A stretch of 64,000 nt of DNA from Armigeres subalbatus. Taxonomy: Eukaryota > Arthropoda > Insecta > Diptera > Culicidae. The position numbers and the translations under genes are program-made. The stretch spans positions 85,238 to 149,237 of the forward strand of contig NW_026943215.1 of NCBI RefSeq assembly GCF_024139115.2, read 5' to 3'. How positions within the stretch are numbered: the stretch's first letter is position 1; each line of letters begins with the position of its first letter. Of the stretch, positions 8,662 through 63,259 are shown one piece after another. A model generated the notes under the pieces. The model ran no database searches and had not been told where the DNA came from. It worked only from the letters and a program-made list of their open reading frames with translations.

Positions 8662-9254
8662 ATTTTTTTTTCTTCCTAAACAATGGAGGGAGGCAGGACT
8701 GCATCCTCGACCCGCTAAACCGTTTCCATTGTCGCCAAGCCCATCGTCCCTCCGGTACAACCAGATAGTAATGCTTCAAAGGGGGGTCAGTGCACAACGC
8801 ACTCTGAGGTTAGCTGCGTGTCCTTGCAGCATCGAACATCGTGACTCGCTTTTTAGAAGAACACCATGGCGATACGATGCCAGCGCATTGCCGGCTTTCC
8901 AGGTGGCCTTACCACGTCATATGCCCTCGGAAGGTGGGAAGGTCGACTTCGCGCTCGCTTCCCTCTGCACGACTGGTATCAAGAATGATGATGCCGCGTG
9001 CACAAACTGACCTCTCTGCGATAGGGCATATTCGCCAACACAGAGGAACTTGCCGACGCGGTGCCTACGCCTGCCCTAGCCTTGACGAGGACCCTTTCCG
9101 TCCTCGGCTCGGAACCCGCAGGTTGACCGACGCCGCTATAGCGGCGATACCTAGTTGTTCTTCGCGCGGCCTTGTTCGATAAAAGGATCGAATTTGACCA
9201 CAGGGCACCGGTATGACCCATGATGCCGACTCCGAACCCTTGGACCCTCTTATT

Positions 9255-11440
9255 TGCGCCTGAACCAGCCATTCCTCGAGTCCACGCGCCACCTTCTGTG
9301 TAGCTCCGAGACGATTTGGACGATAGCCGATAAAACGGCGTTCCAGCCAACTTCATCTTTACATCCTCGAACCAGGTTGTTCCGGGTAGTGTCCAGACCA
9401 CATGTGGCCACGCATTGTGCGAAAACGCGGGCCGCCGTTTCCTCTAAACCTGCGCAACCGGACACCTGGTGAAGCTGCCCCCATACCTCAGTATGGACAG
9501 AGTGACACTAGCAAGAAGCTTGCGCTTGCTGGCATAAACGCAGAGCTATTGGACATCATCCGGGACAATGCCACTATAGCAGTGGAGGCACGCTTGCAGG
9601 CGTAATTGACGTGGCTACCAAAGGTGAGCTTATCGTCGATCATTACCCCAAGAGTTTGATGGAGCATTCAGAGGTGACCTGCAGTTGCTCGCCCTTATCA
9701 CCGCTTGTTGCTCCGACTTTCGGTTGTTAACAACAACCACCTCAGTCTTGTGGTGAGCGTTCTAACTGCCTGAACTCATCCACTCCTCCACAATTGCGAT
9801 CGAGTGGGCTGCAGTCAATTTCACTCTTCGATCGATTCGCCGTAGAACTCAGCGTAATATCGTCAGCGATGCCGACGATTACCACGCCCACGGAACTTCA
9901 ACCTCGAGACAGCGTCGCTATGACGTTCCATAACACCGGACCCAGTATGGAACCTTGCGGAACTCTTGACGCACCTGACCGCCTCCGTGTCGTATACCAG
10001 TACTCGATTCTGGAAGTAGCTGAGAGTTTTGTGCCGGTCGAATTCCAAGACGGGGAGCGCACCTGCAATAGCGCGCCAACTGGCACTATTGAGTGCATTC
10101 CTACGTTGGTCGAGAGTTACTACTGCACAATAACAATCTCCTCTCCTCTTACGCTTGATAGCTATCTCCGCGGATTTGGTAACCGACAAGATAATGTCTA
10201 CGGTCGACTTATCCTTTCGGAAGCCAAACTGGTTACTCGATAGACCATCCGCACCCTCCGTGCGTGTTAACAATCTGTTGAGGATGATCTTCTCGAGCAC
10301 TTCCTGCCGTATCAAGCAGGCATATTGGTCTGTATGCCGACGGATGCCCTGGTGGTTTTCCCGCCTTTGGCAAGGACCAGGATCTGCCTTTTCCATGCTT
10401 CAGAGAAGACTCCCTCGTTTGGGCATCTCTGCATGACAGATCTGAACATCTCGGGAGCCTCAGCAATGGCCGCTTTGATGGTTAGGTTCGGAATACTTTC
10501 CGGTCCTGGCGCTTTATCTACACTAAAGGACTGTGCAATCTCCGCAAGTTCCGCCACGGTTACTATTCCCTCGTCGAGCACCTTGGCCTCTGGCAGCTCC
10601 ACAAAGTGAGGCCAGGGACTTGTGTCATATCGTGAGAAGAGCCCCGCGGTGATCCTTCCAGCATATCTGAAGACGCTCTGTAGGGGCCATCGCCACGTGT
10701 ATTGGCTATTACGACCCTACCTAGCAGCACACATGTTTCATAGGTTACTGCAACTTATATGTGACCAGATTTAGTCACAATCAAGTTGCTACAACCATTT
10801 TTGTCTAACTTGTGCTGCTCGGGTATAGGCGTCACCCCATGGATTCGCGTTGGCACTTTGACACAGGCCCTAGAAGCAGGCTTTTTGCTTGATCTAATTC
10901 TGTCTTTAGAGCGGCTCTAGTCGCCACTCGTCGTTCAATACGCTACTCTTCTGCATGCTCGCTGCATCCGCCTCCGTGCCCAGGGAAGGCGCGGCGCAGG
11001 TTCGTAATTGCTAAGCGGTGGCCTCCATCCTAGGGTGGACTTTCCAGGCATGGTGTCGCGCACGCGCAGAGTACTGTTACCAGCCGTTCTCCGCCCAGAC
11101 CGAGAGTATTGTGCTGCGGCGAGGCGCTATCACCACCGGCCTACGCCCTATCAAGTTAGACGTCAAACAATTTAGCATACGACGAACTGCTCGATCGACC
11201 ATCGAGGAGGCAGTAGCAGCTGCAGAAGAAGACTCCGTTGATTTTGGCAATGACTGGGTATTTCCCGTTGTCGATATCGCCGCCATTTTAGACAACCCTT
11301 TTAGACACGGTGACCCAATTACTCTCCTGGCGGGTACCCGGTAAAGATCTGCTATGATGGCGATATATCGTCCTCCATTCAGCACTCGTCTGACACAGAG
11401 TTGCTGGGCTGCATCACAGTGGTTCAGGTTTAGTACCTGC
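9255..11440 (-). pseudogene. R1-type ORF2 (endonuclease-RT), copy 1
   Basis: Minus-strand pieces in order: endonuclease start with VLNLNHCDAAQQ and AIIADLYRVPAR (about 11435-11250); a deletion of the rest of the endonuclease; linker; the RT N-terminus with TVAELAEIAQSFSVDKAPG and PEMFRSVMQRC (10602-10320); fingers and palm with SSNQFGFRKDKSTVD and YFQNRVLVYDTEA (10290-9960); and the C-terminal cysteine region near 9465-9255. Frames change many times. A MITE splits the linker at 10720-10823. Compared with copy 2 it keeps slightly different endonuclease residues but has more frameshifts. Confidence 0.75.
10720..10823. mobile_element. 104 bp TA-flanked MITE with a visible empty site
   Basis: The ends CCTAGCAGCACA and TGTGCTGCTCGGG are imperfect inverted repeats, flanked by TA at 10718-10719 and 10824-10825. 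The matching place in the R1-type copy 2 (around 53008, plus strand) reads straight through without the insert, which gives the pre-insertion sequence. TA duplication fits a Tc1/mariner-type source. Confidence 0.85.
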
Positions 11441-12972
11441 ACTGTGATTTTGCAGCACTTAAACGCGGTACTTCGAACCCCCCATGGGTGGTTGCTGTTC
11501 GCAGCTTTGCTGGAACAAATGAAACAATTGGGAGGGTTTCGCAGCATTGTGCCTTATGTCCTCCAATCCGCAGCGTCGGCAGAGTTTGCTTCTGTCAGGG
11601 CCTTTGCGTCCCATTGCTTGTGAACCGGTTCCAGGCACTTTGAAGCAAACTTCGAGTTGTTCGATGCTCCACAGGGCACACCGACCATCCCACCTTGACG
11701 CTCCTTAACTGACTACTTTGGAGGCGTCCGCTGCAGATAGCGAACCAATGCTCCTGTGTCCCTGCCGGACCTTTCCATAGCCAAACGGCTGCGGTGGCTT
11801 CTCCAATTCATGTCGCCACAGTGCCGTGACGAGCTCTTCGACTTCGATCTCGTCCAGGTCTTTAACTCTTAGATTCACCTCCGTCGAGTGCCCCTGACCG
11901 TCTCGCCTAGGACTTCCTCTGCCAACTTCTTGTAGGCGGCACCTTTTGCGAGATACCCGCTTCAGCTCGAGGATCATCTCGCCCGTCTGGGTACGTCTTA
12001 TTCGATGCGTCGGCGCCAAGTTCACCGAGCTTGACGTCATCCTCATCGCCTTCAAGACGTCCGAGTACTTAGTCCGTCCGCCTTGATGACTAGGGCATCG
12101 CCCCTGGAGCGATTAGCGCCTACCCTAGATTTATTGCTACCCTCATTCGGCTGGGCCTTCTTTCGGCCATTGACGTCTTCGGTTTCCTCTTGTTCTTGAC
12201 CAAGGTCCAGGAGGCATCATCCCCCTCATTTCCTGGTCTGGTGCGGCTGAGAGCTCAGCCTCGCCGTAACCCCTTACTACGTCTTTTCCTGGGTGGAGAC
12301 CTTTCCAGGTCCTTCCTCCCCGGTTTTGAGGTACCTGGCCGGGGTCTGGCTTCCCAGCCCCACTACCCTTGTTCCGGGTAGTAACCCTCCGCGTTTTGAA
12401 GCGGCCCCCCGAGCCCACCTGGAGACTGTCTCCCTGTTTTGTGTCTGCTCCGAGCAGTCACCCCTGACGTGTCCGTGAATACTTGAGCCTTAGTCTGCAG
12501 ACTTTGGCACCACGTCTTTGCTGGCACGCCCTCGATCGATTCGACTTGCTCGAGTCCGCGAATCTTGGGCCCAGTCTGGTAAGACCTCGACTCCACGGAT
12601 TTCACGGGTTCGCACTTGGCCGTCCGACCGCCTCTCCAGCTTGGCGTCCAACATCGACTTTTGTTTCAGCTAGCCCCTGAGGTCCTTACTGATATTATGC
12701 TTCGATGACGCAAAGTCGATGATGCGTCAGCTGCCTGTCGCCACCTCGGGCCGAAAGCCAATCGCGTTTACGGTTCATCGCCCTCACAAGCCATGGGCCG
12801 CCATAACCTCTACCGGCGTTGCCGAGGAGAAGGTTATGACCCACGCAGCGCTGCGCACCGAGCTGCCGACTATTGCCTCTGGCCCCTAGGCGAAGACCTG
12901 AACAACCCACTCTTGCGAAGGGTTGTAGCCTACACTACTACCACTAATTGAAAGTTTATTTGGTTTTCCATT
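11440..12972 (-). pseudogene. R1-type ORF1 (gag-like with CCHC knuckles), copy 1
   Basis: Counterpart of the copy 2 ORF1. The minus strand shows MNRKRDWLSA near 12780-12750, EVNLRVKDLDEIEVEELVTAL near 11880-11820, and a decayed CCHC region (NPPNCFICSSKAANS) near 11545-11500. Several frameshifts separate these blocks. The start is placed at an ATG near 12972 by comparison with copy 2. The product would coat element RNA. Confidence 0.65.
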
Positions 12973-28721: not shown

Positions 28722-29127
28722 TCATTGCAGTCCATATTCCACGCCATGCTCGACAGGGAAATCAAATACAGGTGGCTGCTTGAAGAGCACACGCTCCCGT
28801 CCGTTTGGTGTCGCGAAATAAGGACGGATGTACATTGAAATGTTTGACGACCTGTCGCCGCCACCACTGCCGTCGTCGTTGAACTTCCTCACCTCGCCGT
28901 AAGGATGATGGTGATGCACCCTCACGCAGAGTGTGTCCTTTTGTTTATCGGCGAGCATTGCTTCATATTTTTCGGCGGTGTAGAATCTGTTTAACGTCGT
29001 GGGATGATCATTTTTTCTGGCTGCCAGACTTGCAAATGAGTCTTTGAGAGATGTTGGAATGCACCTGAACGGAGGTGACAATATTTGGATACATCTGGAG
29101 CAGATTTTCCTGAATCTCGATAACTAT
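28722..29127 (-). pseudogene. Unrecognised coding-like fragment with a stop
   Basis: Not identified. On the minus strand an open stretch of about 105 codons ends at a TGA at 28722. It has mixed composition unlike the surrounding AT-rich junk, with segments such as FYTAEKYEAMLADKQKDTL, YGEVRKFNDDG and PPVFDFPVEHGVEYGLQ. Upstream, another frame reads DIVIEIQENLLQMYPNI and SNISQRLICKSGSQK; the two frames meet at an A run near 29013-29018, so a one-base change may have split one reading. The upstream end is cut by the CCAAA satellite. It could be a host exon, a decayed viral insertion or a transposon piece. No catalytic motif, signal peptide or membrane segment is seen. Confidence 0.4.
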
Positions 29128-31205
29128 GTCAACCAAAACCAAACCAAAACCAAACCAAAACCAAACCAAACCAAACCAAACCAAACCAAACCAAACCAAA
29201 ACCAAAACCAAACCAAACTAAAACCAAACCAAACCAAACCAAAACCAAACCAAAACCAAACCAAAACCAAACCAAACCAAACCAAAACCAAACCAAACCC
29301 ATCCAAAACCAAACCAAAACCAAACCCAAACCAAACCAAAACCAAACCAAAACCCAACCAAATCCCATCCCAAACCAATCCAAAACCAAACCAAAACCCA
29401 TCCAAAACCCAACCAAATCCAAACCCAATCCCAACCCAAACCAAACCCAAACCAAACCAAAACCAAACCAAAACCCAACCAAAACCAAACCCAAACCAAA
29501 CCAAAACCAAACCAAACCCAAAACCAAACCAAAACAAAACCAAATCCAAAACAAAACCCAACCAAACCACAAACCAAACCAAACCCAAAAACAAACCAAA
29601 ACCAAACCAAAACCAAACCAAAACCAAAACCAAACTAAACCAAACCAAAACCAAACCAAAACCAAACCAAAACCAAACCAAAACCAAACCAAAACCAAAC
29701 CAAAACCAAACCGAAACCAAACCAAAACCAAACCAAAACCAAACCAAAACCAAACCAAAACCAAACCAAAACCAAACCAAAACCAAACCAAAACCAAACC
29801 AAAACCAAACCAAAACCAAAACCAAACCAAAACCAAACCAAAACCAAACCAAAACCAAACCAAAACCAAACCAAAACCAAACCAAAACCAAACCAAAACC
29901 AAACCAAAACCAAACCAAAACCAAACCAAAACCAAAACAAAATCAAACCAAAACAAAACCAAAACCAAAACCAAACCAAAACCAAACCAAAACCAAACCA
30001 AAACCAAAACAAAATCAAACCAAAACCAAAACAAAATCAAACCAAAACCAAAACCAAACCAAAAACAAACCCAAAACAAAACAAAACCAAACCAAAACCA
30101 AAACAAAACCCAACCCAAACCCAACCAAAACCAAAACAAATCCCAACCAAAACCCAAACAAAATCAATCCAAAACCAATCCAAAACCAAACCAAAACCAA
30201 TTCAAAACCAAACCAAAACCAAACCAAAACCAAACCAAACCAAATCCAAACCCAATCAAAACCAAATCGAAAACAAACCAAAACCAAAAACAAACCAAAT
30301 CCAAACCCAAACCGAAACCAAACCAAAACCAAACCAAACCAAACCAAACCAAACCAAACCAAACCAAACCAAACCAAAACCAAACCAAAACCAAACCAAA
30401 ACCAAACCAAAACCAAACCAAACCAAACCAAAACTAACCCAAATCAAACCAAAACAAAACCAAAACCAACCAAAAACAAACCAAAAACAAACCAAAACCA
30501 AACCAAAACCAAACCAAACCAAACCCAAAACCAAACCAAAACCAAACCAAAACCCAACCCAAACCCAAACCAAACCAAAACAAAACCAAACCAAAACCAA
30601 ACCAAAACCAAAACAAAAACAAAACAAAAACAAACAAAAAACAAACCAAAACAAAAACAAAACCAAACCAAAAACAAAACAAAAACAAACCCAAAAAAAA
30701 CCAAAACACACCCAAAAAAAAAACAAAACCAAACCAAAACCAAACCAAAACCAACCCAAAACCCAACCAAAACCAAACCAAAACCAATCCAAAACCCAAC
30801 CAAAACCCAACCCAAACCAAACCAAAACAAAACCCAAACAAAACCAAAACCAAACCAAAACAAACCCAAAACCAAACCAAACCAAACCCAAACCCAACCC
30901 AAAACACAAACAAAACAAAACCAAATCCAATCCAAATCCAATCCAAATCCAATCCAAATCCAATCCAAACCAAACCAAAACCAAATCCAAACCAAATCCA
31001 AACCAAAACCAAACCAAAACCCAACCCAAAACAAACCAAAACCAAACCAAAACCAAACCAAAACCAAACCAAAAACAAACCAAAACCAAACCAAAACCCA
31101 AACAAAACCAAACCAAAACCAACCCAAAAACCAAACTAAAAACCAAGCTAAAACTAACCAACCAAACCAAAACTAAAACTAAAACTAAACTAAAACTAAA
31201 CTAAA
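29128..31205. repeat. 2.1 kb CCAAA/CCAAAA satellite
   Basis: The plus strand is made almost wholly of alternating 5- and 6-base units CCAAA and CCAAAA, with variants such as CCCAAA, CAAAA and (after 31130) CTAAAA. G and T are almost absent. Long open frames on both strands (710 codons plus, up to 342 minus) are consequences of the repeat lacking stop words and should not be annotated as proteins. It interrupts or abuts the coding-like fragment on its left and a BEL/Pao remnant on its right. Confidence 0.97.
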
Positions 31206-34816: not shown

Positions 34817-35516
34817 ATAGACTGGCCCAGGAAAGAAAAAGTTGTCTAATTCCACGGGGCACCCCCCAGGATTGTGTCTTTGGGTGAGAAAATCAATCTC
34901 TGAAAATTTCAGCTAAATCGCTTGTTGCATAAGCTGGCGCATTTGATTTGAAGTTTGTATGGGGATTTCAGCCAAAATGTATAGGAAAATACACCTCCGT
35001 CACTCATTCGATCTGGAAATTGATTCTGTTTGCTCGATTGACCTCAGAATTGCAAAAACGGCAGTTGGTATGCCACAGAAGAATTTCACAGAACATTGTA
35101 TGATGATTAAATGAACTTTTATATAGGTTTCGGCTGATGCGATTCGATCAAAAACCCAAAATACACAAATCAGCTCCTAATAAATCAGCCGAAAATTATA
35201 TAAAGTTCATTTAATCATCATGCAATGTTCTGTGAAATTGTTCTGTAGTATACCAACTGCCGTTTTTGCAATTCTGAGGTCAATCGAGCAAACAGAACCA
35301 ATTTCCAGACCGAATGAGTGACGGAGGTGTATTTTCCTATACATTTTGGCTGAAATCCCCATACAAACTTCAAATCAAATGCGCCAGCTTATGCAACAAG
35401 CGATTTAGCTGAAATTTTCAGAGATTGATTTTCTCACGCAAAGACACAATTCTGGGGGGTGCCCCGTGGAATTCGACAACATTTTTTTCTCCCCATAGTA
35501 ATCTGGGCCAGTCTAC
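34817..35516. mobile_element. 700 bp foldback element with about 330 bp arms, copy 1
   Basis: The left arm starts TAGACTGGCCCAG (34818-34830); the right arm ends CTGGGCCAGTCTA (35503-35515). The arms are near-perfect reverse complements over about 330 bp, joined by a short loop near 35140-35180. TACTAC flanks both ends (34811-34816, 35517-35522) as a probable target duplication. A second family member is at 61677-62543. No transposase is encoded. Confidence 0.9.
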
Positions 35517-35589
35517 TACTACAGTCATGACATCTCTGACATCTCTGTCGCAATGATTGCTGCCTTGAGAAGGGTGTTCGGAACTCCAT

Positions 35590-48493: not shown

Positions 48494-49107
48494 CAGTATC
48501 CCCCCGCTTATCCGGACTTCGCTAGTCCGACGACTCGTTAGTCCGGATCTCGCTAATTCGAAATTTTCCGGATTAAAAAGTATCAACACCCATTTAAACA
48601 CATTATGCTGTCTGTTTTCAAATTTGTGCTGTGATTTTGTTTTGGTTCATTTTTTTGAGTATTGAAACTACCATAAGACTTGGTGAGACACCGTGATTTT
48701 TCGTCGGATCGGAGTAACGTACTGCTTGAAGTTTTCGATTAGACTAAATCCATGGTTTTATTACACCTGTATTTATCTCCGAACGGCCGACTCACGACCC
48801 ATACATTAACTTGTCGTTTAACGACATCTTCGGGTTTTCGCCCGTTCACTTACACGCTAAAGGTATACTCCACACATTTGTATGGATTTGACAGTCGGAT
48901 TTACGAGAGAAACCCCGATAGTCCGGCCATATATTTCTCGCTTAACTTTTCAAAAGGTCCTAAGTAACATTTAGTAACATTTAGTGCAATCAACGTATTC
49001 CATGTTAATCTGTTGATTGCAATACTCAAATTAAATCATGAAAAAAATGTTACTTAGGACCTTTTGAAAAGTTAAGCGAGATTTGTCGGATCAGCGGGGG
49101 TATACTG
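48494..49107. mobile_element. 614 bp pogo/Tigger-like MITE
   Basis: The ends CAGTATCCCCCCGCTTATCC and CAGCGGGGGTATACTG are terminal inverted repeats of pogo-type style, flanked by TA (48492-48493, 49108-49109). Inner words such as TAGTCCGGATCTCGCTAA are semi-palindromic. A smaller palindromic MITE (48936-49081) is nested near its right end. No transposase remains. Confidence 0.8.
48936..49081. mobile_element. 146 bp palindromic MITE, copy 1
   Basis: Arms TCTCGCTTAACTTTTCAAAA plus GGTCCTAAGTAACATTT are mirrored at the right end. Copy 2 is at 61478-61634. It is inserted in the pogo-like MITE. Confidence 0.85.
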
Positions 49108-50775: not shown

Positions 50776-52300
50776 ATGGTGGAAAACTTGGAAAACCAAG
50801 TCAATTCTTCAATTAGTGGTAGTAGTGTAGGCGACAACCCCTTCGCAAGAGGTGGGTTGTTCAGGCCAGAGACAATAGTCGGCAGCTCAGTGCGCAGCAC
50901 CAGCGTGGGTCACTTAACCATCTCCCAGGCTCCGCCGGTAGATGTTATAGACGGCCCATGGCTTGTGAAAGCGATGAACCGCAAACGCGATGGGCTTTCG
51001 GCCTTCGAGGTGGCGACGGAACAGCTGGACGCCATCATCGACTTTGCGTCATCGAAGCATAATATCAGTAAGGGGAGCTTGCTGAAACTTCGAAAGTCGA
51101 TGTTGGACGCCAAGCTGGAAACGGCGGTCGGAACGGCCAAGTGCGAAACCGTGAAATCTGTGGAGTCGAGGTCTACCCAGACTGAGCCCCAAGAATTCGC
51201 GGATTTGGGCAAGGTCGAATCGACCGAGGGCGTGCCTGCGAAGACGGTGGTGCCAAAGTCTACCCAGACTGAGGCTCAAGTATTCGCGGGCACGTCGGGG
51301 GTGACTGCTCCAACGGAGCAGACACAAAAACGGGGAAGACAGTCTCCAGGGGATGAGTTCCCTGGGGGGCCGCTTCAAATCGCGGAGGGTTACTACCCCG
51401 AACAAGGGTAGTGGGGCTGGGAAGCTGAACCCCGGCCAGGTACCTCCAAAACCGGGAGAGGAAGGACCTGGAAAGGTCCGTCCACCCAGGAAAGACGGTG
51501 GTAAGGGGTTACGGCAGGCTGAGAGCTCTCAGCCACCCCAGACCAGGGAAATAGAGGGGGATGACGCCTCCTGGACCCTGGTCAAGAACAAGAGGAAACC
51601 GAAGACGTCAAGGGCCGAAAAGAAGGCCCAGGCGAATGAGGGTAGCAAGAAGTCTAGGGTAAGCGCCAATCGCTCCAGGGGCGATGCCCTAGTCATCAAA
51701 ACGGACGAGGCTAAGTACTCGGACGTCTTGAAGGCGATGAGGAGTGACGTCAAGCTCGGTGAACTCGGCGCCGAAGTACGTCGAATAAGACGTACCCGGA
51801 AGAGGGAGATGATCCTCGAGCTAAAGCGGGGCGTCTCGCAAAAGGGCGCCGCCTACAAGAAGTTGGCGGAGGAAGTCCTAAGCGAGACGGTCAAGGTGAG
51901 GACACTCACGACGGAGGTGAATCTAAGGGTTAAAGACCTGGACGAGATCACCGAAGTCGAAGAGCTCGTCACGGCACTGCGGCGACAGTGTGAAGCGGAG
52001 ACGTCCACCGCAGCTGTTCGGCTACGGAAAGGTCCGGCAGGGACACAGTAGTCAAGGTTGGGTGGTCGGTATGCCCTGTGGGCATATATGAGCAACCTTG
52101 GAACCGGGGCACAAACAATGGGACTGCAAAGGCCCTGACAGAAGCAAGCTCTGTCGACGCTGCGGATTGGAGGGACCTAAGGCACAATGCTACACGAACC
52201 CTCCCAACTGTTTGATCTGTTCCAGCAAAGTTGCGAACTGCAAGCACTCCATAGGGGGTTCGAAGTGCCCGGCGTTTAAGCGTGCTGCAAAATCACAGTG
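50776..52300 (+). pseudogene. R1-type ORF1 (gag-like with CCHC knuckles), copy 2
   Basis: RNA-binding ORF1. ATG at 50776 is chosen because the residues after it (SSISGSSVGDN, VKAMNRKRDGLSAFEVATEQ, SKHNISKGSLLKLRKSMLDA) are conserved in copies 1 and 3. The track of about 210 codons ends near 51411. A shift near 51360 leads into a Lys/Arg-rich middle (WTLVKNKRKPKTSRAEKK) and VRRIRRTRKREMILELKRG, VNLRVKDLDEITEVEELVTAL (to 52051). A further shift precedes the knuckles HKQWDCKGPDRSKLCRRCGL and CLICSSKVANCKHS (52100-52260). Two STQTEAQ- or TQTEP-type repeats lie near residues 135-170. Confidence 0.8.
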
Positions 52301-54474
52301 CAGGTAACGCAGCTAAACCTGAACCACTGTGATGCAGCCTAGCAACTGCTGTGTCAGACAGTTGCTGAATGGGGGATGGATATCGCCATCATAGCAGATC
52401 CTTACCGGGTACCCGCCAGGAACGGTAATTGGGTCACCGATGGGTCTCAAATGGCAGCGATATGGACAACGGGGAAATACCCAGTTCAAGAGTTGGTGTC
52501 TTCGGCACATGAGGACTTCGTCATTGCCAAAATCAACGGGGTCTTCTTCTGCAGCTGCTATGCGCCTCCTCGATGGTCGATCGAGCAGTTCGGTCGAATG
52601 CTAGATTGTTTGACGGCTAACTTGTGGAAGACATCATACTTCGACGACGAGGTGTTTAAGGAAGCGCTCCGCCGCGAGCACAATACTCTCGGTCTGAGCG
52701 GCGAGCAGCTGGTAACAGTACTCTCACGTGCATGCGATGCCACCATGCCTAGGAAAGTCCACCCTAGGAATGGGAGGCCACCGGCTTACTGGTGGACTCG
52801 AGCAATTGCGAACCTGCGCCGCGCCTGCCTACGGGCAAGGAGGCGGATTCAGCGAGCACGCACAGAAGAGGAGCGTGTTGAACGACGGGTGACGTTCGTG
52901 GCTGCTAGAGCCGCTCTGAAGTCTGAGATTAGATCAAGCAAAAAAGCCTGCTTCGAGGGCCTGTGTCAAAGTGCCAACGCGAATCCATGGGGTGACGCCT
53001 ATAGGGTCGTAATGGCCAAGACACGTGTGGCGATGGCCCCTACAGAGCGGTCTCCAGAGATGCTGGAGAGGATCATCGCGGGGCTCTTCCCACGTCACGA
53101 CCCAAGTCCCTGACCTCCCTTTGTGGAGCTGCCAGGGGCCAGGGTGGCCGACGAGGGAAGAGTAACTGTGGCGGAACTTGCGGGGATTGCACAGTCCCTT
53201 AGTGTAGGTAAGGCGCCAGGAAAGGAAGGTATTCCGAACCTGGCCATCAAAGCGGCCATTGCTGAGGCTCCCGAGATGTTCAGATCTGTCATGAAGAGAT
53301 GCCTGGACGAGGGAGTCTTCCCTGAAGCATGGAAAAGGCAGAGCTTGGTCCTATTGCCAAAGGCGGGAAAACCACCGGGGGATCCGTCGGCATATAGACC
53401 AATATGCCTGCTTGATACGGCGGGGAAGGTGCTCGAGAAGATCATCCTCAACAGGTTGTTGTTACGCACGGAGGGTGCGGATGGTCTATCGAGTAACCAG
53501 TTAAGCTTCCGAAAGGGTAAGTCAACCGTAGACGCTATCTTGTCGGTTACCAAATCCGCGGAGGTAGCTATCAGGCGTAAGAGGAGGGGAGTTCGCTATT
53601 GTGCAGTAGTGACTCTCGACGTGAGGAATGCTTTCAACAGTGCCAGTTGGGCAGCTATTGCATATGCGCTCCTGCGTCTTGAAATTCCCGAGTACCTGTA
53701 CAAGATTTCCGGAAGCTACTTCCAGAATCGAGTACTGGTATACGACACGGAGGCGGGTCGGAAGTGCGTTGACATAACCTCAGGGGTTCCGCAAGGTTCC
53801 ATACTGGGTCCGGTGTTATGGAACGTCATGTACGACGGTGTCTTGAGGTTGAAGTTCCCGGTGGGCGTGGTAATCGTCGGCTTCGCTGACGATATTACGC
53901 TGGAGGTCTACGGCGAATCGATCGAAGAGGTGGAATTGACTGCAGCCCATTCGATCGCAATTGTGGAGGAGTGGATGAGTTCCAGGAAGTTAGAACTGGC
54001 TCACCACAAGACTGAGGTGGTTGTTGTTAACAACCGAAAGTCGGAGCAACAAGCGGTGATAAGGGCAGGCAACTGCACGGTCACCTCTGAACGCTCCATC
54101 AAACTCTTGGGGGTAATGATCGACGATAAGCTCACCTTTGATAGCCACGTCAATTACGCCTGCAAGCGTGCCTCCACAGCTATAGTGGCATTGTCCTGGA
54201 TGATGTCCAATAGCTCTGCGGTTTATGCCAGCAAGCGCAAGGTTTAGAGGAAACGGTGGAACACGTGTTGTTCGTGTGCCCGCGTTTTCGCACAATGCGT
54301 GACCACATGCTTGCCACATGTGGTCTGGACACTACCCCGGACAACCTAGTCCGGAGGATGTGTAAAGATGAAGTTGGCTGGAACGCCGGTTTATCGGCTA
54401 TCGTCCAAATCGTCTCGGAGCTACACAGAAGGTGGCGCGTGGACTCGAGGAATGGCCAGTTCAGGCGCAAATAA
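52300..54474 (+). pseudogene. R1-type ORF2 (endonuclease-RT), copy 2
   Basis: One frame with few breaks. Endonuclease start LNLNHCDAA, stop, DIAIIADPYRVPARNGNW and VIAKINGVFFCSCYAPPRW (52376-52600), then a deletion joins it to the linker KTSYFDDEVFKEALRRE. A single stop (TGA at 53111-53113) precedes RT: VGKAPGKEGIPNLAIKAA, GKPPGDPSAYRPICLLDTAG, LSSNQLSFRKGKSTVDAIL, VTLDVRNAFNSASW (motif A), SGVPQGSILGPVLWNVMYDG and the catalytic GFADDITLEVYG (53880-53915). Reading stops at 54247, where a second deletion joins RT to the C-terminal cysteine region VEHVLFVCPRFRTMRDHM (54256-54474). RNase H is not present. Confidence 0.88.
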
Positions 54475-54582
54475 GAGGTGGTCCAAGGGTTCGGAGTCGG
54501 CTTCATGGGTCATACCGGTGCCCTGTGGTCGAACTCGATCCTTTTATCGAACAAGTGGGCTCGTGAAGAACAACATGGTATC

Positions 54583-55091
54583 CTAAATTAATGATTTCGT
54601 GTGTGTTACTTCTACGTGAAGTTAAACGATTTACAATGATATGGAAATGCTAATATCATCTTCAAACTTGGACGTACATGTTCATGATAGCATTAGAGGC
54701 GAAAGTATAGAATTGATAGTTCCGTTAGGATTCGAGCATGAAGAATGTTTTATTAGAAGTCGATTTGAAAGCTAGCGGATAGCAAATATTTGTGATGGCA
54801 TATATCGTCAAACCACCTTCCTTCTTGCCAGTGGAGATATATCAGTGTGGACTGATATTCTTCCTCCCCTTCATATGGGAGCTTGGCAGAAGGAAGGTGC
54901 TGACATATGCCATCGCGTGCGGAAATATTGCTATCGACAGATCGCTTTCAAATTTCTAATATGACATCAGCATTCTTCATGCCTGCCGTATCCTAACGGA
55001 ACTATCAATTCTATACTTTCGCCTCTAATGCTATCATGAACATGTACGTCCAAGTTTGGAAGATGATATTAGCATTTCCATATCATTGTAA
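54583..55091. mobile_element. 509 bp foldback MITE in the R1-type 3' region
   Basis: It is flanked by AACATGGTATC (54572-54582, 55092-55102), an 11-base duplication; copy 1 shows the uninterrupted site. The arms (54630 on and up to 55091) start TTTACAATGATATGGAAATG and mirror over about 150 bp, with a second mirrored pair CACCTTCCTTCTTGCCA nearer the centre. The left 47 bases have no counterpart on the right. Confidence 0.85.
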
Positions 55092-55102
55092 AACATGGTA
55101 TC

Positions 55103-55668
55103 GTCGCTTTCGCGGCGTCGGTCAACCGGGCGGGTTCCGAGCCCGAGGACGGAAAGGGGTCCTCGTCAAGGCTAGGGCAGGCGTAGGCACAGCGTCGGCA
55201 AGTCCCTCTGTGTGCTGGCGAATAGGCCCTATCGCAGAGAGGTCAATTTGGGGTGCACGCGGCATCATCATTCTTGATACCAGTCGTGCAGAAGGAAGCA
55301 GGCGCGAAGTCGACCCTTCCCACCTTCCGAGTTCATAGGGCGTGGTAAGGCCACCTGGAAAGCCGGCATTGCGCTGGCACGATACCATGGTGTTCTTCTA
55401 AAAAAGCGAGTCACGACGTTCGATGCTGCAAGGACACGCAGCTAACCTCGAGGATGCGTTATGCACTGGCCCCCCCTTTGAAGCATTACTTTCTGGTTGT
55501 ACCGAAGGGACGATGGGCTTGGCGGCAATGGAAACGGTTTAGTGGGTCGGGGATGCAGTCCTGCCTCCCTCGTTTGCTGTTGGAGGTGGCCCCTAACCCC
55601 ACACTTCCTGGACAACCCAGGATGTCTGTTGAGCAGATACCCCCTCCATTGCTTAGGAAGAAAAAAAA
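55103..55668 (+). other. 3' untranslated region of the R1-type element
   Basis: Non-coding and GC-richer; it corresponds base for base, with few changes, to 9160-8670 reversed. It includes TAGGGCAGGCGTAGGCA and AAGCATTACTTTCTGGTTGT and ends in the A-tail. An 83-base stretch near 55570-55640 is absent from copy 1. Confidence 0.75.
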
Positions 55669-56750: not shown

Positions 56751-56783
56751 AGGTAACAAGGTGCAAAATTTGATGGTACTCAA

Positions 56784-56983
56784 TGTAGTATCGACGCTTG
56801 AAAGGAAACACATTGTCTCTGATTGCCAGTCTCAATACTAATGAGGTTTATTCTCTGCTTCGTATCGTACATGTTATGAGTAAAGCTTTTACAGTCGTGA
56901 GCTATATGTGAAAGCTCTCACGACCCTTGTTACCAAGGTTTATCTATTAATAGGTATCATTAGAAATAACAGTAGATACTACA
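56784..56983 (-). repeat. 3' LTR (200 bp)
   Basis: Same length and ends as the 5' LTR. The minus-strand AATAAA at 56852-56847 is a candidate poly(A) signal. Confidence 0.95.
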
Positions 56984-57000
56984 TTCACTTTCTTCTTTTT
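56984..57000 (-). promoter_or_regulatory. Polypurine tract
   Basis: The minus strand reads AAAAAGAAGAAAGTGAA directly before the 3' LTR; it is the primer for plus-strand DNA synthesis. Confidence 0.85.
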
Positions 57001-57026
57001 ATCTGGTTCAATGTTATTATTAGGTT

Positions 57027-57148
57027 TCAATCCTTTTGGACGGCTTGCACGTAATGACGCATATATGTTGGCGGTCGAATAGTTCGTTTAACTCCACGTC
57101 CTCTGGTGCAGTCTGCATGTTGTCCTATGCCTTCGTCGGGAGAATTAC
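57027..57148 (-). CDS. Putative last exon of pol
   Basis: Forty codons from the acceptor to TGA (57029-57027), including RGVKRTIRPPTYMRHYV, the basic/proline tail that closes many Ty3/gypsy pol proteins. It is reachable in frame only through the GT...AG junction at 57212/57149. The stop lies 27 bases before the polypurine tract, a sensible compact end. Confidence 0.65.
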
Positions 57149-57212
57149 CTGTTGAATATAAAGTATTTTACTGGTATGTTATTTCAATGAAGTGGTTTAG
57201 GGTATATTATAC
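57149..57212 (-). other. Putative 64 bp intron near the end of pol
   Basis: GTATAA at 57212 and TATTCAACAG ending at 57149. AT-rich, of usual insect short-intron length, with an in-frame TGA if retained. Removing it joins the integrase frame to an open 40-codon tail. Confidence 0.65.
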
Positions 57213-58071
57213 CATCAGGTTTGTTCGTTTCTTGTGCGCACAAATCAGTCACACCCACCGGAATGCGTTGTAGATGGGTCACATGTCTTCGGTATTTAAC
57301 ACCAGATTCTGAAGCAACTATCACATCCCCGCCCTTTCGTTTGATTACTTTGAATGCTTCGGAATCAAAAGTTGGTGTTAACTTATTCGTTTTAGTCATT
57401 TTCTTCAGCAAAACGTTGTCGCCTTCCGAGATAAGATTCGGTTTAGCATTCCGTCGTTCATCTGCGTACAGCTTACCTCTTTCTTTCATGGCTTTGTCTT
57501 GATCTATCAACTCTTCATCGACATCTTTAGGCTGATAGATAGACGGGAGTTTATCACGAATATTATACCCGAACATCAGTTCTGAGGGTGTTTTCTTTGA
57601 CGTCGAGTGGGAAGATGAGCGATACATTAGTAGGTATTTGTTCAATTCTTCGATCCAGTCACCGTTCATTGTTTGATTGATCGTTAATCTTTTCAAAATA
57701 GAACGGTTTTGTCGCTCAACTTCACCGTTCTGTTGGGGCCAGTATGGTGTAGTGCTGATAAGCTTTATATTGCTAGATTTGCAATACGTCCGAAACTCCT
57801 CGCTAGAAAACTGTGGACCATTATCAGCAGTAATTGACAAAGGTAGGCCAAACCTTGCGAAAATTGATTCCAAACGCCGTATGGTTTCTCTGGAGTCCGT
57901 TTTTTTCATAATTTCAATCTCAATGTAGCGACTGAAATAATCGACTACTACGAATAAGTAGTGACATGACGGAAGAGGACCAAGGAAATCAATAGCCAGG
58001 TGTTCCCATGGGCCTGAGGGAAGCTCTCTACGTTTCATCGGTTCGGGCGCAGAAGGAGCTGCAACCAGCAT
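57213..58071 (-). CDS. Ty3/gypsy integrase core
   Basis: DD(35)E catalytic triad: HLAIDFLGPLP (first Asp), SITADNGPQFSS (second Asp), PQQNGEVERQNR (Glu). Then the C-terminal domain with GDNVLLKKMTK, FKVIKRKGGDVIV and KYRRHVTHLQRIP. It ends at a donor ATG/GTATAA at 57212; read straight on, a stop comes about 13 codons later. Open over about 286 codons. The enzyme would insert element cDNA into the host chromosome. Confidence 0.92.
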
Positions 58072-58075
58072 GCAT

Positions 58076-58380
58076 CCACGGCAGTTTTAATATACTGCTC
58101 AACCTGTGCATCCAATTTCGGCCACCAGACTTTCGCACGCAATCTCTGCTTCATGACCGTCATCCCAGGATGGCCCTCGTGCGCTAGGGTCCAACGTCTG
58201 CTTTCTCAACAGTTCCGGAATCACTATTCTAGTTCCTCGCAATAAAATCTTTCCTGCAAAGCAGAGTTCTGTGGCGAACAATTTGAACGGTAATGAGTCA
58301 CCTGACCACTCGCCTTGATCCAAAGCTATACGAACTGATTGAATCGACTTATCTGCAGCAGATGCTTCTTCGATTTCTGT
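58076..58380 (-). pseudogene. Ty3/gypsy linker and integrase zinc-finger region, frameshifted
   Basis: The minus strand continues in the shifted frame with IRTSIQS-like tether sequence and FATELCFAGKILLRGTRIVI, PELLRKQTL (58230-58190). One extra base near 58185 moves the frame into LAHEGHPGMTVMKQRL (the HH part of the HHCC finger) and RAKVWWPKLD. One missing base near 58085 precedes CRGCMLVAAP (the CC part). Thus all four zinc ligands are present but in three frames. Confidence 0.8.
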
Positions 58381-58382
58381 TA

Positions 58383-59426
58383 TTTTAGCGCTACTGGTGT
58401 TGCATTTGATGCTACCCAATGTACATAATGTTCCACACATTCATCAAACGTCATTCCAGTAGCACTCGTAGTAATGGCCAATCGGGATAGCGAGTCAGCA
58501 ATATTCATTTTTCCTGGTCTGAAGATTACTTTTGCTTTGTACGCTTGTAATCGAACAACCCACCTCTCTATCCTGGCACATGGCTTTGATCGAGGCTTAA
58601 ATATCGCTTCCAAGGGTTTATGGTCTGTAATCAGTTCGAATTCTCGGCCAAACAGGTAAAAGTGAAATCGTTCCACTGCCCATACAAGCGCCAAAGCCTC
58701 TTTTTCAATTTGGGCATAACGCTTTTCTACATCGGATAAGCTCTTGCTAGCGTAAGCAATTATCCTTGGCCCATGTTCATTCACCTGAATAAGCACAGCC
58801 CCTAAGCCAACTGGGCTTGCATCGGCTATCAGTTGCGTACGATCATCAATGTCATAGTAACCCAGTGTTTTAGGGTCCGTCAAATGTTCTTTCAGTTTTG
58901 CAAAAGCTTTTTGCTGTGTGGTTCCCCATTCAAATTTTCGTCCTTGATTCGTCAATAGTCGCAGTGGATACGTTAGAGTAGCCAAATCGGGAAGAAACTT
59001 GCCGACAAAATTAACCAAACCGAGAAAACTTCTTACTTCTTCTCCATTTCTCGGTGCTCTGAAATTTTGTATTGATTCAAGTTTATCTTTATCAGGCTTA
59101 ATTCCATCCGCTGACAACGTGTGACCTAGGAAGTCCATTTCGGTTACTCCATAAACGCATTTTTCCTCGTTTAGTGCTACATTCCATTCTTTTAGTTTGA
59201 GAAGAACTTTTTCTAATCTCATATTGTGCTCCTCATGATCAGACCCGTACACAATAGCATCATCAATGTACACCATGCACCCATCGCATCCGCTCAGAAC
59301 CTGTTCCATTGCCTTTTGGAACAATTCTGGCGCGCAGTTGATCCCAAACATAAGTCGGGTGTATCGAAACAATCCTCTGCGCGTAACAAAAGTTGTAATC
59401 TCCCTCGACTTTTCCGATATTTCAAC
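58383..59426 (-). CDS. Ty3/gypsy RT palm/thumb and RNase H
   Basis: Open from the acceptor at 59426. Motifs: LFRYTRLMFGINCAPELFQ, catalytic YIDDAIVYG, FLGHTLSADGI, VRSFLGLVNFVGKFLPDLA, then RNase H LIADASPVGLGAVL (first Asp), YASKSLSDVEKRYAQIEKEA (Glu) and LITDHKPLEAIF (Asp), ending FRPGKMNIADSLSRL. A TAA at 58382-58380 ends the frame because an A run in CTAAAATAACAG is one base short; the next frame continues with TEIEEASAADKS. This reads as a deletion rather than programmed shifting, since the site is not a usual slippery sequence. Confidence 0.9.
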
Positions 59427-59557
59427 CTAAAATAAAACTCTTGTTTATTTTTTTCCATCAGAATCTATGTTGTTTATTAAGTCATCAAAAATTGAAAGTT
59501 CAAAGCATAAAAATTAGGTCCGAATGTTCGAAAATAAAAATTGATCCATCAGCCTAC
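59427..59557 (-). other. Putative intron inside the RT domain (131 bp)
   Basis: Border CAG/GTAGGC at 59557 and TTTTATTTTAG/G ending at 59427. It is AT-rich with a possible branch site CTTAATA about 50 bases before the end. Length is not a multiple of three, and a TGA comes at the third codon. Without it the RT frame continues through residues expected between motif A and the FGINCAPELFQ block. An inserted MITE is less likely: no terminal inverted repeat or target duplication. Confidence 0.75.
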
Positions 59558-61248
59558 CTGATGGAAAGCGTGCTTCACATCGATCCGAGAGAAAACTTTC
59601 GCTTTTGCCAGTTGAGGAAGAAAATCCTCGAAAGTCGGTAAGGGGTGATTCCGAGGGTGAGTCACTCTCTCTACCGCCTCGTTGGCACGTCGCATATCCA
59701 CACAAATTCGAATGTCGTCTCCTTTGGGAACCACGACCACCGGGGAGACCCATTTGGATGGTTCATTCACTGGTTCGATAACGCCTTGGCTGAGTAACTC
59801 GTCAATTTTCTTATCAACTCTTTCTTCCAATGCCACTGGTATGCGTCTGTACGGTTGTACAACAGGTGCAACATCGGCCTTGATGGGAATGTCTACCACA
59901 ATTCCCTTGATAGTACCCAAATGCTTGCATTCAGCTTTTATTTCGTTCACAGGAATATTAATTTTTAGAACCCCCATTGATGTTGCAGTGTCGCGACCGA
60001 TAAGGATTTTGCCGTGACCTTCTATTACGTAGAACTCTGCCAGTCCAGTTACGTTGCATAGCTTGATCATTGCTGTAAATACGCCCAGTAGTGCCAGGGG
60101 TTGACCTCCATAGGCCTTGAAGGATTTCGATGTTTCTCGTCGTTGATTTGACACTCTCACTTTGTTGGTTTTCAGTGTTTCCCAATCTTTTTGGCTCAAC
60201 AAATTGTATTTGGAACCGGAGTCGATCACTGCATGAACAAGTACTCCTCCGATCTCACACTGGATTTCACCGTCACTGTCGCTAGTGGTTACATTGAACA
60301 CGTATTCTATTTTCTCGTCAGTTATTTGTTTCACAGTGTTTGAGTCATCATCGGAACGACTTTGTTCGGCAGTTTTGTTGTCTCTGTCGTCCCGCCGATT
60401 TCCAATCCATCGGTAGCTATTTGCTCTTATCAAATTCTTGTTTCTGCGGCACTTTCTGGCAAAATGGTCTTTGCCTCCACATCGGTTGCATGCCTTTCCT
60501 TTGGCAGGGCAATTCGCATCTCTTGCTAGATGTCCACTGTATCCACAACGATGACATTCAAACTGCACCATTTCAGCATGCCGTTTACGCATGGCAAAAG
60601 ATCGCTTTGCATCAATTTTGTTGACTTCGCTGATGTTTGGTTTCGAAATTTCATTAACAGCAAAAGATTTCTCCTGCTGTGCAACGGTTTCGAAAATTTT
60701 TGCAATGCTCAAAATTTCCTCCAGACTCGCATCACCTCGCTTTAATAGATCCCGGCGCAGCGCAGCCGATTGGCAGTTCTGTATAATTTGGTCTTTTATG
60801 TTTTCCTCCGTTCGGTCACCAAATCCGCACCGTTCCGCTTGGACTCTCAATCTGATGGTGAATGCATCAATATTTTCCCCGGATCGTTGTCTCATCTGGC
60901 GCAGTAAGTGACGTTCATATGTGGTGTTCTCCTTTGGCATAAAAAACTCATTCAACCTGGCGCGTGCTTCCTCATAGTTTGTCATATTCGGTGTGTAATG
61001 TTCGATGTTTAGTAGAGGTCCGCGAAATTCGGCACCGGCCAACTCGGGCAATGTATCGAAAAGTTGTTGGATGCTCGAACCGGCGAAGTGTAGCAATAAA
61101 TCTCTCTTCCAGTCTTCATCGTCTACCCGACTAGCTCGAATCATTGTTTCGAACGATCTGAGCCACTTGCTCCATTCAACACCGACATCGTCGGTATGAG
61201 CAGTATAATCGAACGGCTGCATCTGCAGTCCCAACGACCGAATCATGT
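59558..61248 (-). CDS. Ty3/gypsy gag-protease-RT N-terminus
   Basis: About 563 codons open from the ATG at 61246. Gag capsid-like region at residues 10-190 (EWSKWLRSFETM; YERHLLRQMRQRSGE near 110-123); two CCHC knuckles at about 231-246 (CHRCGYSGHLARDANC) and 253-266 (CNRCGGKDHFARKC); aspartic protease with catalytic VIDSGS near 340-345 and ILIGRD near 414; RT start with LLSQGVIEPVNEPSKWVSPV, CVDMRRANEAV, and motif A FSRIDVKHAFHQ (Asp at about 556). It reaches the donor at 59557 without a stop. In unspliced RNA only two more codons and a stop follow. Gag and Pol share one frame, so no ribosomal shift is needed. Confidence 0.92.
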
Positions 61249-61477
61249 CTGCAAACGATACGAACGTAATTACAAAATTAGTGCACCATTTTCAGCAATT
61301 GCTTGTATTATTTACAGTTTTCGAATGAAATTCTACTAATTACTCGAGTATGCATTTCCTGAATCCTCACATGATTGTATTTGTCAACATATTTTCTTTA
61401 ACCGATCTGTCAAAACTCAAAACACAATTATATTCGTATAGGTTTGTTTGTGCATATACATATACCATCATCAGATA

Positions 61478-61634
61478 TCTCGCTTAACTTTTCAAAAGGA
61501 CCTAAGTAACATTTTTATCATGAATTAAATTGAATACTGCAATCAATAGCTTTCATATTGTTCTGTTGTTTGCGCTATTCAAATTAATTCATGAAAAAAA
61601 TGTTACTTAGGTCCTTTTGAAAAGTTAAGCGAGA
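61478..61634. mobile_element. 157 bp palindromic MITE, copy 2
   Basis: Arms TCTCGCTTAACTTTTCAAAA and mirror; flanked by AT-rich ATA/TAT, compatible with a TA target. Same family as 48936-49081. Confidence 0.88.
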
Positions 61635-61676
61635 TATGATGTATTTGAAACATGGTGGCCAGTGTGTGTGCATAGT

Positions 61677-62543
61677 AGAGTGGCCCAGCCTAGTATGGGG
61701 AGAAAAAAAGTCGTCGGATTATACGGGGCACCCTCCAGAATTTGGCCTTTAGGTAAGAAAATCATTCCCTGAAAATTTCAGCCTGATCGGTTATTGCATA
61801 AGCTGGCGCAATTGATTTGAAGTTAATATGGGGGTTTCAGCCGAAATATATGGGAAAATACACCTTTGTTACTATTTCGTACAGGAAATTGGATGGAAGA
61901 GCCCGATTGAGCCCAGATTTGCAGGAAATGAAGTTAACATGCCCATGAACAATTCGACATGAAATTCTACTATTACTACATAAACTTTAAATCAGTTTTT
62001 GGCTGATTTATTTGGAGTTGGGTTGAGCACTTTGAAATTCATTAATTGCCATGAAAACATACGCATGCAATCAAAGGTGCCTGCGATGCGTGATTTCGCG
62101 CGCACTGAAACATAAGTAACTGCATGCGCGCCACAACACATATCGCAGCTACCTTCGATTACATGCGCTTGTTTTCAAGGCAATTAATGAATTTCAAAGT
62201 GCTTAACCAAACTCCAAATAAATCAGCCAAAAACTAATTTAAAGTTTATTTAATCATAGTAGAATTTTATGTGGAATTGTTCATTGGCATGTTAACTTCA
62301 TTTCCTGCAAATCTGGGCTCAATCGGGCTTTTCCATCCAATTTCCTGTACGAAATAGTAACAGAGGTATATTTTCCCATATATTTCGGCTGAAACCCCCA
62401 TATTAACTTCAAATCAATTGCGCCAGCTTATGCAATACCCGATCAGGCTGAAATTTTCAGAGAATTATTTTCTTACCCAAAGGCAAAATCCTGGGGGGTG
62501 CCCCGTAGAATCCAACGACTTTTTGTATCCTGGGCCAGTCTAA
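61677..62543. mobile_element. 867 bp foldback element, about 410 bp arms, copy 2
   Basis: Same family as 34817-35516 (shared words TATGCAATAACCGATC-like, CTGAAAATTTCAG, GCTTATGCA, GGGGCACC). Ends GTGGCCCAG and CTGGGCCAGTCTA. The arms are longer here because the centre holds an extra mirrored segment around 62040-62170 (TTTGAAATTCATTAATTGCC). Inserted in the leader of the Ty3/gypsy element, so younger than it. Confidence 0.9.
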
Positions 62544-62738
62544 TGCACAGATATCAGTAGTTTCTCTCAGTTCACACATACTTTGGTTTGTTCTCTAATG
62601 GTTCTTCTCCTCTACACCAATACTAACTCACATCAAGTGCAATACAACTATTCAGTTTGATTTTCACCGATACAAATGAGGTTTGTTTTTCAGCATATAA
62701 GCATCGAAAACTTTTCCAGATTGAAAACAGATTTTTCT

Positions 62739-62970
62739 AACCGCATTTAAGCGACAACATGTCCTCCCTTTTTTTTTTGACCTGCTCTTTCGCAGAATGA
62801 AATCAGACATTCCGAACCGCATTTAAGCGACTGATTAATTTCAAAATATCCTCCATTTTTTCAGCTCTTTCGCAAAATTAAATCAAACATTCCGAACCGC
62901 ATTTAAGCGACTAATTTTTAGAGTGAAATCAGACAGACTGAGACCCTTGCTGAGACCGCATTTAAGCCAC
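62739..62970 (-). repeat. Four-copy leader motif
   Basis: AACCGCATTTAAGCGAC occurs at 62739-62755, 62815-62831 and 62895-62911, and with two changes at 62954-62970, each preceded (except the first) by AATCAGACA/AATCAAACA-like sequence. Spacing is 76, 80 and 59 bases. It sits in the 5' leader, where packaging or enhancer signals are expected; its role is unknown. Confidence 0.85.
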
Positions 62971-63018
62971 AGAACAACTTTTAATTGCCTTTCCGTAGTC
63001 ATACCTCCAGATACTTAC

Positions 63019-63034
63019 CAAATGAATTCGCCAT
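63019..63034 (-). CDS. Putative start exon of the Ty3/gypsy gag-pol
   Basis: The first ATG after the 5' LTR (63034-63032), 20 bases inside the LTR border, is followed by four codons plus one base and then a perfect donor GGTAAGTAT. Joined to the acceptor at 61249, the frame runs without a stop into gag and passes through the ATG at 61246. The latter could also serve as start in unspliced RNA. The short leader leaves little room for a conventional primer site; none beginning with TGG was found directly at the LTR edge. Confidence 0.6.
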
Positions 63035-63054
63035 TTTTGGTTCCTCGTCGTTCC

Positions 63055-63254
63055 TGTAGTATCGACGCTTGAAGGGAAACACGTTGTCTCTGATTGCCAG
63101 TCTCAATACTAATGAGGTTTATTCTCTGCTTCGTATCGTACATGTTATGAGTAAAGCTTTTACATTCGTGAGCTATATGTGAAAGCTCTCACGACCCTTG
63201 TTACCAAGGTTTATCTATTAATAGGTATCATTAGAAATAACAGTAGATACTACA
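63055..63254 (-). repeat. 5' LTR (200 bp)
   Basis: Differs from the 3' LTR at about three positions (A/G at the eighteenth-to-twentieth bases, A/G near base 29, G/T near base 110), so about 98.5 percent identical. It should contain the promoter; no strong TATA box is evident. An AATAAA word on the minus strand lies in its 3' half. Confidence 0.95.
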
Positions 63255-63259
63255 CTCAA

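Follow-up and report, generated by a model that had tools for sequence, protein, structure and literature searches.

Conserved intron-like interruptions in gag-pol of a mosquito Ty3/gypsy element and a possible splicing switch between Gag and Gag-Pol

The window analysed here, a 64,000-nucleotide stretch of Armigeres subalbatus contig NW_026943215.1, holds a 6.47 kb Ty3/gypsy element on the minus strand (63254-56784). Its gag-pol reading is broken by three segments with GT...AG borders, across each of which the flanking pieces join in frame. An original prediction made from the letters of the window had placed these segments exactly where we find them, and Pfam identifies their flanks as coding. 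It had also proposed long terminal repeats (LTRs) about 98.5% identical and a CTCAA duplication, both of which were confirmed. The element is laid out as follows, in the order of its own reading.

63255-63259, minus strand: target-site duplication TTGAG (CTCAA on the plus strand) on the 5' side, with its partner at 56779-56783
63055-63254, minus strand: 5' LTR, 200 bp, 98.5% identical to the 3' LTR with 3 differing sites
63019-63034, minus strand: exon 1, ATGGCGAATTCATTTG, 16 nt, starting 20 nt past the LTR and comprising gag codons 1-5 (MANSF) and the first base of codon 6
61249-63018, minus strand: predicted intron 1, 1770 nt, GTAAGT...TTTGCAG
59558-61248, minus strand: exon 2, remaining Gag with the zinc knuckle, protease region and early reverse transcriptase to DVKHAFHQ
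59427-59557, minus strand: predicted intron 2, 131 nt, GTAGGC...TTTTAG, splitting the reverse transcriptase between HQ and VEI, with an in-frame stop 2 codons past the donor
57213-59426, minus strand: exon 3, remaining reverse transcriptase, RNase H and integrase, with three frame changes in the window copy
58086-58386, minus strand: broken stretch in the integrase zinc-binding region, with frame changes relative to continuous relatives
57149-57212, minus strand: predicted intron 3, less certain, 64 nt, GTATAA...CAACAG
57027-57148, minus strand: exon 4, a 39-residue C-terminal tail ending in GVKRTIRPPTYMRHYVQAVQKD that resembles the tails of four annotated relatives
56784-56983, minus strand: 3' LTR, 200 bp, with a purine-rich tract just before it

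Intron 1 is in phase 1 and falls in the codon after MANSF, intron 2 is in phase 0 between HQ and VEI, and intron 3 is in phase 1 within a glycine codon. The pol tail is separated from the 3' LTR by 43 nt.

The LTR pair with its short target duplication, the domain order Gag, protease, reverse transcriptase, RNase H and integrase, and a Ty3-like reverse transcriptase place the element in Ty3/gypsy (Metaviridae). When the pieces were submitted to Pfam separately, the gag piece yielded a zinc knuckle, the second pol piece RVT_1 and RNase H, and the third rve; the second pol piece matches Ty3 Gag-Pol with an E value of 9.7e-49. The protease gave no Pfam call in the window piece and appeared only below the cut-off in the annotated relative P0133, and RVT_1 in relative P0123 covers both sides of the intron-2 point. 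The closest known relatives of the element are in mosquitoes. No TGG of a primer-binding site adjoins the 5' LTR, where the sequence reads GGAACGACGAGGAACC (63039-63054) and no primer was identified; some LTR elements use other primers, so that the absence of TGG is compatible with Ty3/gypsy membership. In three annotated relatives (P0123, P0124 and P0147) LATR is read just before the start, which, guessing from residues, would fit a TGGCAACGAGG-like site lacking in the window copy.

The copy in the window is recently inserted and now defective. Against relatives whose reading is unbroken from RNase H through the integrase zinc-binding domain, it aligns in alternating frames, with frame changes near 58385, 58199 and 58086 that reflect either mutation or assembly error. 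The copy is young, as the original prediction describes it, but the three frame changes in integrase had been missed.

To compare the interruptions, the pieces of the element were searched separately, and 120 listed relatives per piece were used, comprising raw open reading frames (ORFs) and annotated models. The gag search took in proteins of 311-989 amino acids only and scored the 7985 candidates sharing most words. Among the matches listed, the gag piece has 20 annotated relatives; their hosts are mosquitoes of the genera Aedes, Armigeres, Ochlerotatus, Malaya, Topomyia, Sabethes, Toxorhynchites, Uranotaenia and Anopheles, as well as Eupeodes, Musca and Drosophila. Where a listed exon-3 match carries an organism name, it is an animal or a bacterial bin. 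A scan of viral contigs returned no relative of the element, and a scan of genome contigs returned one distant locus (L001).

The interruption of the reverse transcriptase recurs in these relatives at a single codon. The motif DxxxAFHQ is present in 102 of the 120 exon-2 relatives, the other 18 (6 annotated and 12 raw) ending before the motif or lacking it and being omitted from the counts. Of these 102, 94, at about 40-99% identity, end within 9 residues past HQ and 8 read on as reverse transcriptase, a proportion that measures conservation and not frequency. Raw ORFs stop in 86 cases and read on in 2 (n=88); annotated models stop in 8 and read on in 6 (n=14). Valine, the reading of GTN, directly follows HQ in 85 of the 86 raw stopped tails versus 23 of the 73 listed exon-3 relatives that are continuous there (Fisher p 3e-22, with relatedness ignored). 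On the downstream side, 12 relatives start at the exon-3 border, 6 of them on the border codon and 6 after a short unrelated leader, and all six leaders end in Q, which is how a CAG acceptor reads; 35 further exon-3 relatives start deeper inside and were not judged at the border. The intron-2 point is bridged by HQ-VEI in five annotated models, namely P0123 from Aedes albopictus, P0137 from Uranotaenia, P0152 from Anopheles arabiensis, P0175 from Musca and P0177 from Toxorhynchites, and by HQ-VAI in a sixth, P0214 from Drosophila.

The stops that follow the donor are unusually close to it. Among 45 representatives (the longest protein of each 70% cluster), with tails of 1-8 residues, 34 have tails of at most 3 residues, where a rate of 0.085 stops per codon predicts 10.5. 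With the rate set between 0.047 and 0.10 the expectation runs from 6.1 to 12.2; the rate is assumed from the 27% GC of the window intron, and the clusters are not fully independent. The common donor GTRAGT (GTRAGY) would read V-S, and serine is the second tail residue in none of the 86 raw tails. Early stops together with non-canonical donors fit a regulated retention of intron 2.

A second recurrent interruption lies after the fifth codon of gag. An anchor for the gag start was available in 36 of the 120 listed relatives, of which 14 are annotated and 22 raw; the other 84 were not judged. All 14 raw anchored relatives whose leader has 3 residues or more, which form 6 clusters at 70%, fit the acceptor reading NYA-GNN just before gag M1 in one phase, the figure for neighbouring pairs within these leaders being 17 of 130. 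Of the annotated models, 6 of the 20 join a first exon of the form M(A/T)(N/S)x(F/L)(D/E) to gag MIR (MASQFD, MANQFD, MTNPFD, MANSLD twice and MANPFE), and the join predicted for the window after removal of intron 1, MANSF and D followed by MIR, is like these six N-termini. The annotated P0133 from Ochlerotatus and the raw P0132, which are 99.6% identical over 558 residues, diverge at the N-terminus, where the former reads MANSLD and the latter MYFAD. In the window, the first AUG lies upstream of intron 1 and opens an unspliced reading of 11 codons, MANSFGKYLEV, followed by a stop, and 49 AUGs, this first one included, precede the gag M of exon 2 in the unspliced RNA. Such an RNA would consequently be ill-suited for making Gag and well-suited as a genome. 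The interior of intron 1 is repetitive:

62708-62980, minus strand: tandem units of about 60-80 nt around the core GTCGCTTAAATGCGGT, early in intron 1 soon after the donor
61699-62530, unstranded: palindromic repeat, 832 bp, arms 90% alike, with relatives at 34818-35518
61475-61637, unstranded: palindromic repeat, 163 bp, arms 87% alike, with a relative at 48933-49085

Should further copies of the element share the palindromes, these would have travelled in unspliced RNA.

The predicted introns 1 and 2 are features of the lineage: in relatives they recur with position and phase unchanged, and the residues read there are compatible with GT and AG borders. We interpret the element as a member of a Ty3/gypsy lineage that would carry spliceosomal introns in its gag-pol message, with splicing deciding the fate of the RNA and intron 2 acting as a switch between Gag and Gag-Pol, a reading to which we assign a probability of roughly 70%. 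We infer splicing itself, three classes of RNA and the site of a packaging signal. The full-length unspliced RNA would serve as the genome; retaining intron 1, it would give no Gag start from the first AUG. Removal of intron 1 would join the five-codon exon to gag and render the RNA translatable, and as long as intron 2 is retained, this RNA would yield Gag-protease and a reverse transcriptase fragment ending just past the donor. Removal of intron 2 as well, and of intron 3 near the end, would produce a full Gag-Pol with reverse transcriptase, RNase H and integrase. With its non-canonical donor and immediate stop, intron 2 would set the proportion of Gag to Gag-Pol, a task that other elements leave to frameshift or readthrough. 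Four annotated relatives (P0124, P0127, P0133 and P0142) resemble the intermediate form, having the intron-1 join and ending just after HQ. In retroviruses, a packaging signal within the intron limits the copying of spliced RNA. By analogy, a packaging signal might be housed in intron 1, a purely conjectural placement under which spliced RNA would seldom be copied and the introns would persist.

This scheme retains, as the best reading, the proposal in the original prediction that unspliced RNA is the genome and spliced RNA is translated, with Gag-Pol made from RNA that has lost intron 2. It departs from the suggestion that fully unspliced RNA gives Gag-protease: since the first AUG lies upstream of intron 1 and its reading stops early, the Gag-protease message should be without intron 1 but with intron 2. 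Elements that are copied through RNA should lose their introns, and the persistence of these introns in relatives across several mosquito genera and in one or more other flies points to a strict separation of copied and translated RNA. A broader version, in which a dipteran Ty3/gypsy clade gave both central decisions to the host spliceosome, is tentative and, in our estimation, has slightly less than even odds. Intron 1 would silence the genomic RNA and hold the packaging signal, intron 2, held weak and closed at once by a stop, would set Gag to Gag-Pol through its regulated retention, and both introns would have been kept through a very long history despite RNA copying.

Several observations weigh against these interpretations. 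Judged from the window alone, the splice scores are ordinary and barely above chance: the donors of introns 1, 2 and 3 score 7, 7 and 5 of 9, a score of at least 7 being found at 16 of 297 GT sites in the window comparison, and their acceptors are equalled or exceeded, themselves included, by 8, 48 and 23 of 355 AG sites. It is the comparison with relatives that raises the putative introns 1 and 2 above chance. The relatives are known as protein readings, so that their GT and AG borders are deduced from residues, and the annotated models are automated, with RNA support not visible and splicing inferred from sequence. The size range of the gag search also meant that a full intronless gag-pol could not appear. 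P0121, which is 99% identical to the window piece and ends at the same intron-2 point, may be the window locus itself in another assembly. Beside the six with the MANSFD-like exon, the 14 anchored annotated models include four with different N-termini (P0137, P0152, P0155 and P0176) and four that start at gag M. A tree of exon 3 requires at least 4 changes of intron state, and within its intron clade the raw P0200 reads through HQ; these would represent either loss, repeated gain or contigs derived from cDNA. For that tree, 126 database proteins were given and 37 did not enter, 35 because their state at the border could not be scored and 2, both annotated models, because the matched stretch was too short; P0083, which reads AYHQ, was not scored as intron-bearing. 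The first 319 nt of intron 1 fold no better than shuffles (z -0.41). Finally, the window copy carries three integrase frame changes and could therefore not produce Gag-Pol through splicing alone.

The frame changes in pol and the repeat insertions in the leader could be taken to suggest that this copy alone has the segments, as lesions or insertions, in a family whose gag-pol is otherwise continuous. The break at the same codon in relatives of such widely differing identity makes this very improbable, and we rejected it for introns 1 and 2, in line with the intron reading of the original prediction; intron 3 is probably not a private insertion either, with less support. We likewise rejected a bypass or recoding event by which the ribosome, rather than the spliceosome, would cross the gap between HQ and VEI. 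Retroelements do recode and the break sits at one codon; however, the parts are 131 nt apart, the residues adjoining the border in relatives fit GT and AG while the remainder differs, and annotated models cross the point as a splice, leaving a ribosomal explanation hardly conceivable. A third alternative, which we consider rather unlikely, accepts introns 1 and 2 as genuine and explains the third segment as a small indel or sequence error that shifts the frame of the tail. The three other frame changes in the same gene, the weak donor of intron 3 and the unbroken C-terminus of many of the 120 listed integrase relatives all speak for it. The segment, on the other hand, contains a stop in each of the three frames, so that a single frame change would not open it. 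Moreover, HLQRIP is 34 residues from the tail once the 64 nt are removed and about 55 when they are not, compared with 29-44 in the four annotated relatives whose C-termini the exon-4 tail resembles (pairwise E 1e-4 to 3e-8), and P0314, the one suggestive relative, ends alike (...AADKGIQIH). We conclude that intron 3 is likely real, with less support from these comparisons than introns 1 and 2.

The introns may also be real and conserved and yet constitutive baggage, all messenger RNA being fully spliced and intron-retaining RNA being either genome only or degraded, in which case intron 2 would set no ratio of Gag to Gag-Pol. Retained introns often bring premature stops that merely feed decay, and six annotated models cross the intron-2 point. 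We nevertheless regard this alternative as quite unlikely, as the stops lie nearer the donor than composition predicts and the V-S reading of a canonical donor is missing from the raw tails. In addition, eight annotated models end within 8 residues past HQ as if intron 2 were retained, among them the four that have the intron-1 join.

Parts of this plan have counterparts in other systems. Foamy viruses (Spumaretrovirinae) express Pol from a spliced RNA; there, Pol is a separate protein with its own spliced mRNA, whereas here it would be joined to Gag. Penelope-like elements, too, retain introns in their coding sequence, although they belong to another class of retroelements and are not LTR retrotransposons. 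The Ogre group is defined by reverse transcriptase phylogeny and an extra 5' ORF. The passages on Ogre, a plant Ty3/gypsy element, in PMC3735527 and in PMC12786077, both citing Steinbauerova et al. 2008, describe intron-containing transcripts that are spliced. The likeness lies in the spliced introns; Ogre differs in its plant host and in splicing between ORFs, as stated in PMC3735527, whereas in the present element one intron sits behind gag codon 5 and another interrupts the reverse transcriptase. The plant Ty1/copia element BARE1 translates and copies from different RNA pools and ties splicing to the Gag/Pol balance (PMC3735527), but its splicing removes 104 nt and creates a stop, such that the spliced RNA gives Gag only; in our model Gag-Pol depends on splicing, and an RNA that retains intron 2 gives Gag-protease. 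In Drosophila copia, a spliced RNA for Gag accompanies the full-length one (PMC3735527); there the spliced RNA is the Gag message, and the direction is reversed here. Cer1 of Caenorhabditis elegans is an LTR element whose unspliced genomic RNA must exit the nucleus, with CERV needed for export (PMC10309623); the window element, by contrast, has only its short gap between pol and the 3' LTR. Ogre, BARE1, copia, foamy viruses and Cer1 are partial precedents. In two papers on mosquito LTR elements (PMC3286476 and PMC3026039), the passages on introns concern insertions into or near host genes and not introns of the elements, and our searches of an open-licence library turned up no insect report of this intron layout.

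Should Gag-Pol be controlled by the splicing of intron 2, transposition could be governed directly by the host splicing machinery and by small RNAs that act on splicing. Elements of this kind are annotated like intron-bearing host genes ('K02A2.6-like'), and searches for a single long frame can miss good copies.

Elsewhere in the window, 8686-12970 and 50789-55571 are inverted copies of another repeat, 81-91% alike, and 53114-54244 within one of these copies encodes a reverse transcriptase (RVT_1). A long low-complexity tract at 29008-31200 gives PNQTK-like repeats in several frames.

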